Shown: piece by piece, positions 24,764 through 25,598 of the stretch
Position numbering within the stretch: position 1 is the first letter of the stretch
Layout: every line of letters begins with the position of its first letter
Assembly: GCA_913058495.1 (NCBI GenBank)
Contig: CAJXQC010000004.1
Coordinates: 62,001 to 126,000 of the forward strand
Length of the DNA stretch: 64,000 nucleotides
Direction: 5' to 3'
Origin: an uncultured Balneola sp.
GTDB taxonomy: Bacteria > Bacteroidota > Rhodothermia > Balneolales > Balneolaceae
Notes under the pieces: model-generated
What the model was told of the DNA's origin: nothing
What the model saw: the letters and a program-made list of their open reading frames with translations, nothing else
Databases searched by the model: none
Position numbers and translations under genes: made by a program

Positions 24764-24805
24764 AAATCCCGTAGGGGGAATTCATGAATTCCCCCTACGG
24801 GATTT
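24764..24805. repeat. 42-bp perfect palindrome with ATTCATGAAT core, possible terminator
   Basis: All 21 base pairs match about the centre at 24784/24785 and there is no loop. The arms contain CCCGTAGGGGG and its complement. A T run on its right side could make it act as a terminator for the amidase gene. It is too perfect and too long for an ordinary terminator and looks like a dispersed palindromic repeat. Confidence 0.85.
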
Positions 24806-24813
24806 TATATATA

Positions 24814-24840
24814 GGGTCATCCCGAACTTGTTTCGGGATC
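24814..24840 (+). repeat. Left palindromic repeat of the GIY-YIG unit
   Basis: A 27-bp element containing a perfect hairpin: ATCCCGAA, a 5-nt loop and TTCGGGAT. It matches the reverse complement of 25201-25227 at 24 of 27 positions. The GIY-YIG gene starts 37 bp after it. Confidence 0.88.
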
Positions 24841-24877
24841 TTTGTAAGGAATTGCTCTTGAAACAGTCTTACTTCCT

Positions 24878-25171
24878 ATGAACAAAGGCTATGTGTACTT
24901 TCTTACTAACTATCGAAGAACTACGATTTATATCGGAGTCAACAATAACATACATTTACGAGTGTGGAAACATAAATTGGGAGAAGGCTCTTTATTTACT
25001 TCAAAGTATAAGCTAACCATTCTTATATATGCGGAAGAATACGATAATATAAGTGATGCTATAGCAAGGGAGAAGCAGCTAAAGAATTGGCATAAACAGT
25101 GGAAATGGAATCTGGTAAAGCAAAACAATCCAAAGTTAGAAGATTGGTATGATACCTTAAGAGGATGGTAA
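24878..25171 (+). CDS. GIY-YIG nuclease domain protein
   Basis: 97 aa, a single GIY-YIG domain of the small UPF0213/YhbQ-like type. The GIY-equivalent YVYFLTN and YIGVNNN motifs are at residues about 5-23, followed by a conserved Arg in HLRVWKHK and the catalytic Glu in AIAREKQLKNWHKQWKW. It should cut or nick DNA with one metal ion. The gene is framed by inverted copies of a palindromic repeat, 37 bp before the ATG and 29 bp after the stop, forming a compact unit of 414 bp. That layout suggests a nuclease linked to spread or maintenance of the repeats, analogous to REP-associated transposases, but the activity is inferred. A role in DNA repair is the alternative. Confidence 0.9.
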   Translation: MNKGYVYFLTNYRRTTIYIGVNNNIHLRVWKHKLGEGSLFTSKYKLTILIYAEEYDNISDAIAREKQLKNWHKQWKWNLVKQNNPKLEDWYDTLRGW

Positions 25172-25200
25172 ACAAGAACAGACTAAAAATCTTTACGTAA

Positions 25201-25227
25201 GATCCCGAAATAAATTCGGGATGACCT
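25201..25227 (-). repeat. Right palindromic repeat of the GIY-YIG unit
   Basis: An inverted copy of the left element, with its own hairpin: ATCCCGAA, a 5-nt loop and TTCGGGAT. It lies 29 bp after the GIY-YIG stop codon. Confidence 0.88.
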
Positions 25228-25422
25228 GCTTGCACTATTGATGTTGGTATAAAGAAATTTTGTAAACGAATTATAAAACATCTACAAAGATGGCCTATTA
25301 ATGTGATTTTGTGTTTATCAAAAAGGTTCTGATATGATATAATTAGCATCAAAAAAATACAATCAAATCCGCCATTTAGAATTATTGGCACGAACTCCGA
25401 GGTCTTGTTCTTATCTCGACAA

Positions 25423-25517
25423 CCAAAATCCGACAGACTGAGAAGTAGCTATCCATCATTTCGCTGAAAGCGGGGTGATGGAGCTAGTGGAAATAATCTA
25501 AAGGTCGGTGTAGTTGG
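25423..25517. other. Possible structured RNA or remnant in a 427-bp gene-free gap
   Basis: The gap 25172-25598 has no convincing gene. Within it, nested inverted repeats can form a long folded element: CCAA with TTGG, CCGAC with GTCGG, TAGCT with AGCTA, CCATCA with TGATGG, and CGCT with AGCG around a GAA loop. The order of pairs is consistent with one stem interrupted by internal loops. No known riboswitch or ncRNA family could be recognised. It lies 3' of the amidase gene on the minus strand and beyond the GIY-YIG unit. It may be an ncRNA, a 3' UTR structure or repeat debris. Confidence 0.3.
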
Positions 25518-25598
25518 AGGCTTTTTCTGTAATAGACAGAATTATAAACAAGTCAATTTTTTATAAGTGAATTATCCCTACAGGGTTTAATAATGTCC

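Follow-up and report, generated by a model that had tools for sequence, protein, structure and literature searches.

The window analysed here, a 64,000-nucleotide stretch of DNA from an uncultured Balneola sp., probably harbours a REPtron-like autonomous REP unit: a GIY-YIG nuclease gene enclosed by its own GTCA/CGTC palindrome in inverted copies. We put the probability of this reading at about 0.77. Sequence comparison establishes the pairing of gene and repeat; it covers the structure of the unit, variation in its copy number and in its presence or absence, two-ended derivatives, covariation and co-occurrence of nuclease and repeat, and recurrence of the pairing with CGTC REPs in Proteobacteria.

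The home genome (G000; 3.4 Mb in 47 contigs, with Balneola as nearest named relatives) has a repeat of the form GGTC-ATCCCGAA-N5-TTCGGGAT-CTT, found in inverted copies on both sides of the gene. In the window, the left REP hairpin (24,816–24,840, forward strand; letters GTCATCCCGAACTTGTTTCGGGATC) reads GTC-ATCCCGAA-CTTGT-TTCGGGAT-C, and the right one (25,201–25,225, reverse strand) GTC-ATCCCGAA-TTTAT-TTCGGGAT-C; both turn their GTC tag outward. Between them lies a forward-strand gene of 97 codons (24,878–25,171) that begins 37 bp past one hairpin and stops 29 bp short of the other, exactly as the preliminary description had it. That description also gave each element as a hairpin with 8-bp arms, which agrees with the 8-bp stem and 5-nt loop found here; the two elements are indeed inverted relative to each other, but their identity is 25/27 rather than 24/27, with both differences in the loop. 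Folded as single-stranded DNA, each hairpin has a z-score of about −4, and 0/200 shuffles were equally stable. Among the 57 open reading frames of the window, the GIY-YIG gene is the only one with such hairpins on both sides. The left-end tail, which is also the 5′ leader of the gene (24,841–24,877, forward strand; TTTGTAAGGA...GTCTTACT), is kept in close units, and a ‘CTTTGT’ tail is present on gene-free REP copies as well. The right-end tail (25,172–25,200, forward strand), which reads CTTACGTAAAGATTTTTAGTCTG inward from the right REP, likewise occurs on gene-free copies.

GIY-YIG enzymes cleave DNA, and homing endonucleases are found among them. The identity first assigned to the protein holds: it matches PF01541 with E=1.3e-11 and 45.1 bits, against a curated cut-off of 22.6 bits. 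Residues Y7, Y18, G20, R28, H32, E65, K69 and N84 are conserved in the window protein; the catalytic ones, Y7, Y18, R28, E65 and N84, are present in 116–121 of 122 related proteins. The predicted structure is a confident, complete, single GIY-YIG domain (pLDDT 92.6); among solved structures, UPF0213 and Slx1, a structure-selective nuclease, come closest to it. The nuclease is probably active. No relatives were found among 50,697 phage records.

A REP-like element should have further copies in its genome, and this one has dozens: 45 with at most three mismatches, against none for a reversed-pattern control. This number is a lower bound, since contig ends near repeats suggest assembly breaks. 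Contigs 1, 2, 4, 22, 30, 36, 37, 40, 41 and 43 all end about 260 bp or less from a repeat copy, which suggests that longer identical repeats broke the assembly there. Substitutions in the stem are compensated (CCCGA/TCGGG and CCTGA/TCAGG), as expected for a hairpin under constraint. An example of a non-cognate hairpin reads CGTCATTCCCGCG...

Gene units of the home genome are all framed by repeats: one is intact, one (contig 10) keeps both repeats and has lost gene residues 39–61 in frame, and two (contigs 22 and 24) hold decayed remnants of the GIY-YIG gene. Many other copies form outward-facing pairs, 58–259 bp apart and mostly gene-free. Their inner tails are of two kinds: CTTTGT... matches the gene unit at its left end, CTTA[CAT]... 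at its right end. Twelve distinct outward-tag pairs were found, and all 8 typable ones, including 81-bp pairs without a gene, combine one left-type with one right-type end; the gene-free pairs therefore resemble gene units shortened by internal deletion, which keep both of their ends in the manner of REPINs or MITEs. By analogy, solo palindromes and outward-facing pairs would be non-autonomous derivatives, standing to the gene unit in the relation that REPs and REPINs have to RAYT (TnpA-REP). Elsewhere in the genome (L042:1843-2157; C3:127851), no repeats surround one GIY-YIG paralogue, which has matches in congeners; it carries the same leader (TTTGTAAGGAAT...GTCTTACTT) and is possibly a domesticated copy.

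The framing proposed for the window gene proved consistent among related GIY-YIG genes; in about a third of these, no flanking repeat is detectable. In 76 out of 107 full-length related genes, the two 250-bp flanks share a strong inverted or direct repeat; the next windows out do so in 7 out of 105. A 14-mer starting with GTCA is common to both flanks in 83/122 genes vs 6/120 distal controls. Among distant paralogues, a direct repeat often comprises an entire palindrome pair whose GTCA tags face outward (one such reads CGTCATCGCGAGGAG...CTCCTCGCAATGACG), so that a scan for inverted repeats alone missed these paralogues. Where hairpins were detected, the nearest tag points outward in 40/51 cases upstream and 31/43 downstream, and the modal spacing between upstream hairpin and gene is 38 bp. 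At locus L179, two GIY-YIG genes in tandem are separated and flanked by REP-like direct repeats that are nearly identical and about 150 bp long.

Repeat sequence follows protein clade. Protein distance and repeat distance are correlated (Mantel r=0.45, 0/2000 permutations), also at protein distances of at least 0.3 (r=0.29, 0/2000) and, for pairs beyond 0.45, with r of 0.11 (31/2000). In 49 comparisons on genes with paralogues, the nearest protein from a foreign genome came with the more similar repeat in 42 and with the less similar in 3, and 4 were ties. The presence of the repeat tracks that of the enzyme as well. Of the 58 relatives compared, 13 have a close nuclease (about 50% identity or more), and every one of these carries the window-type repeat, in 3–81 copies; of the 45 without one, 4 do. 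Those four are the congeners G003 and G004, an assembly only 86% complete (G009, with 22 repeat copies) and a genome with a single copy. Fisher p-values ignore shared ancestry; counted by genus, the figures are 6/6 vs 2/27. Since protein and repeat covary, recognition of the repeat by the nuclease gains support; covariation and co-occurrence together suggest that the enzyme recognises or spreads these palindromes.

A rival explanation is that RAYT/Y1 transposases move the REPs, two of which happen to enclose the GIY-YIG gene as a passenger. The home genome does encode 7 Y1 proteins, and GTAG REPs are, on the established model (PMC8266576), disseminated by TnpA-REP. However, none of the seven Y1 loci has the window-type repeat, which disfavours Y1-driven movement; one has GTAG-type palindromes instead. 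Di Nocera et al. (PMC3733652) report no Y1 gene flanked by CGTC REPs, and passenger status would leave unexplained the tracking of protein clade by repeat, their co-occurrence and the same pairing in Proteobacteria. We regard it as very improbable. A GTAG-type palindrome of a separate repeat family lies next to the window unit (24,764–24,805, no strand assigned; core GTAGGGGGAATTCATGAATTCCCCCTAC), so that the GTAG and GTCA REP systems meet at this locus; similar GTAG palindromes are also found near one home-genome Y1 protein (L294). Rfam returned only sub-threshold, microRNA-like matches for the neighbouring palindrome.

Syntenic genomes, whose empty sites had been named as a check on mobility, include some that lack the whole unit. 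The unit fills the window site in G006, G007 and G001 as well; in G003 the site is empty. The idea that G003 preserves a clean site from before insertion of the window copy was rejected: G003 has palindrome P once where the others have P-unit-P, and deletion by recombination between palindromes is as likely. The GTAG-type palindrome (GTAGGGGGAATTCATGAATTCCCCCTAC) is single-copy at this empty site. Altogether, the window site is an old insertion common to several species and wrapped in further repeats, and hence not the cleanest example of mobility. A gene-free segment of about 280 bp next to it (25,287–25,567), flanked by short direct repeats, is present in G000 and G006 and absent from G001 and G007; similar sequence recurs beside other home-genome REPs, for example at C39:23420.

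Behind polA lies a second site, which the unit occupies in four species; in G000 a relic is left there, and in G003 the site is empty. G006 has several copies of the close nuclease gene. G007 has four full-length close copies, which are 93–97% identical and one of which contains a stop codon, besides several fragments; near-identical copies occupy unrelated sites of this one genome. Its contig 17 copy is absent from G000, G001, G003 and G006. Two small REPIN sites, p5a and p18, vary in presence among relatives; their junctions are unreadable because the intergenic sequences have diverged too far. For the same reason, no clean target-site rule was found for the core unit.

A free-standing homing endonuclease gene, which copies itself by gene conversion into a single cognate site, would account for a window site common to several species, and homing endonucleases do exist among GIY-YIG enzymes. 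The occupation of many unrelated sites in one genome, by close copies or fragments, does not fit a single cognate site, and homing predicts neither dozens of hairpin derivatives per genome nor covariation with a repeat. We find this explanation scarcely credible.

In some Balneola copies the unit is wrapped in an outer 26-bp terminal repeat, which is a separate, MITE-like multicopy family (TGTAGATGTTAG.TAATTCG.TGACA) with 1–48 copies per Balneola genome. The window has one copy of it (25,261–25,286, reverse strand; TGTAGATGT...TTTACA), with the left partner missing. The insert on contig 17 of G007 includes this outer repeat together with a 5-bp duplication (GAAAT) and sits in the head of another GTCA repeat. 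More generally, ends of the outer element very often lie directly against the first five bases that follow GTC in GTCA repeats (GTC|ATNCC), and its junctions carry 5-bp duplications (loci L089, L092, L093 and L040); going by these junctions, the outer element targets REP heads. The core unit itself ends in inverted REPs, but unlike a classical insertion sequence it showed no target duplication that could be made out; the 5-bp duplication belongs to the outer element. Since one Balneola lineage moved the unit within a larger terminal-repeat element, some of the jumps are not the core unit’s own.

Could the outer element then be the true mobile element of this lineage, with the REP and GIY-YIG core as its rider? 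Its clean insertion in contig 17, similar junctions elsewhere and its copy numbers across the genus all speak for this. Against it, most GIY-YIG units, namely those at the polA site, in other genera, in Bacteroidota and in Proteobacteria, have unique sequence directly outside their REP tags; the outer family abounds in G003, a genome without a close nuclease; and copy L094 suggests a recent insertion of the core unit without outer repeats. We judge the rider explanation distinctly unlikely.

The pairing on which our preferred reading of an autonomous unit rests recurs far from Balneola. A paralogue search of a plasmid collection matched Sphingobium, Sinorhizobium, Shinella, Rhizobium, Azospirillum lipoferum, Neisseria, Aeromonas and others; several of these taxa are named as hosts of CGTC REPs by Di Nocera et al. 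2013 (PMC3733652). Two PLSDB records labelled ‘plasmid’ have the size of chromosomes and probably bear the wrong label: NZ_CP119140.1 (2.2 Mb, Neisseria gonorrhoeae) and CP090106.1 (3.7 Mb, S. meliloti pSymB). In alpha- and gamma-proteobacteria, the small nuclease gene is framed by perfect CGTC-tagged REPs. Tagged hairpins lie on both sides within 160 bp at 10 of 15 GIY-YIG loci, or at about 8 of 12 independent ones, some of the 15 being orthologous; the control, 200 kb from four of the same replicons, gave 0 of 155 open reading frames. The Neisseria gene lies within an array of dRS3-like copies. Around the GIY-YIG genes of Spirosoma and Planktothrix, no tagged repeat was found.

In A. lipoferum 4B, the gene and two palindrome pairs lie between sufB and sufC, a site at which three other Azospirillum have neither gene nor palindromes. 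Two Sphingobium strains lack the unit at a site occupied in others, and one of them retains a single palindrome. In both genera, gene and REPs are either both there or both missing at a site. Loci L263 and L276 comprise the A. lipoferum sufB–sufC gene and a GIY-YIG locus of Shinella sp. PSBB067, which overlaps a sufBC match and has a different REP type.

Such joint presence or absence is hard to reconcile with the idea that REPs merely favour insertion around GIY-YIG genes, or that the enzyme is a REP-cleaving host factor of repair or regulation, with no joint mobile unit. Slx1-like nucleases, the nearest fold, are structure-selective and act on branched DNA, and some orthologues, such as the one at C3:127851, keep the gene without the repeats. 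Yet both unit ends are retained in gene-free pairs, several near-identical copies occupy unrelated sites in G007, and the spacing of hairpin and gene is stereotyped. We consider this alternative unlikely.

We propose that the nuclease would recognise the GTC-tagged hairpin, formed in single-stranded or cruciform DNA, and cut beside it; host repair or replication would then join or copy the fragment at a new site. GIY-YIG enzymes hydrolyse DNA without a retained covalent link, hence the need for host functions in joining. Solo REPs and REPINs would be substrates of the same nuclease in trans. We infer the cutting, its position and the joining step by analogy, from the structure-selective habit of Slx1 and from TnpA-REP, which cuts single-stranded tagged hairpins (PMC8266576). 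The nuclease would thereby have a role in REP spread.

Whether GIY-YIG nucleases constitute a second, independent class of REP-mobilising enzymes, which cut GTC hairpins and spread the entire GTCA/CGTC superfamily of palindromes in Bacteroidota-related bacteria and Proteobacteria, we regard as an even bet. On that reading, a hydrolytic GIY-YIG nuclease would be the sole enzyme of a DNA-only mobile element. As the same pairing recurs in several bacterial groups, the GIY-YIG enzyme is the best candidate for the missing partner that spreads CGTC-class palindromes, a large class that has been known for long. If the pairing is functional, the missing enzyme of CGTC REPs is named, REPs have gained unrelated nucleases as partners on at least two occasions, and a small protein that can be purified, with a defined hairpin as its substrate, is at hand. 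A full-text literature search found no link between GIY-YIG enzymes and REPs; preprints and most subscription papers were outside its reach, so that priority is uncertain. A REP survey of 2025 (PMC12306157) mentions neither RAYT nor a nuclease.

Among known GIY-YIG proteins, the domains of UPF0213/YhbQ type, Slx1 and UvrC share the single small fold and the same kind of catalytic residues; their genes are housekeeping or uncharacterised, whereas the gene described here is multicopy, decaying and bound to repeats. Homing endonucleases such as I-TevI have the same catalytic domain and a role in the mobility of their own DNA, but the present enzyme has no separate DNA-binding domain and no intron, occupies many sites and has a cognate hairpin family.

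For the repeats, the nearest counterpart is the CGTC class, which includes dRS3 and RPE-4/RPE-6. According to the survey (PMC3733652), CGTC REPs have an unpaired CGTC head (or TGTC/CCTC), a stem of 8–9 bp starting with AT, a loop of 4–5 nt and, in most but not all cases, a CCA tail; they form four published families, occur in species of five phyla, predominantly as opposite-orientation (HH) dimers where paired, and lack a dedicated transposase. The repeats described here share the tag, the AT-starting stem (8 bp, ATCCCGAA), the loop (5 nt) and the occurrence of paired copies, and the proteobacterial loci are an exact match, with CGTC or TGTC heads and mostly CCA tails. Balneola heads are GGTC, CGTC or AGTC, of which GTC is invariant, and the tail is CTT; we therefore class the Balneola repeats as CGTC-like, outside the four published families, membership being compatible with a CCA tail that is only usual. 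The survey found no enzyme associated with CGTC REPs; its count of REP-carrying genes excluded hypothetical open reading frames below 120 aa, and the nucleases described here have about 95.

As a whole, the unit most resembles the REPtron (RAYT/TnpA-REP with GTAG REPs, BIMEs and REPINs), which bears out the suggested REP/RAYT-like layout with a GIY-YIG enzyme in place of the Y1 transposase. It differs in its unrelated GIY-YIG nuclease of about 95 aa, with no Y1 HUH gene between the REPs, in a GTCA/CGTC rather than GTAG tag, and in that no covalent tyrosine intermediate is expected. Like the REPtron, it combines a small enzyme gene framed by inverted tagged hairpins with solo and paired derivatives genome-wide, and the clade of its enzyme matches the type of its repeat.
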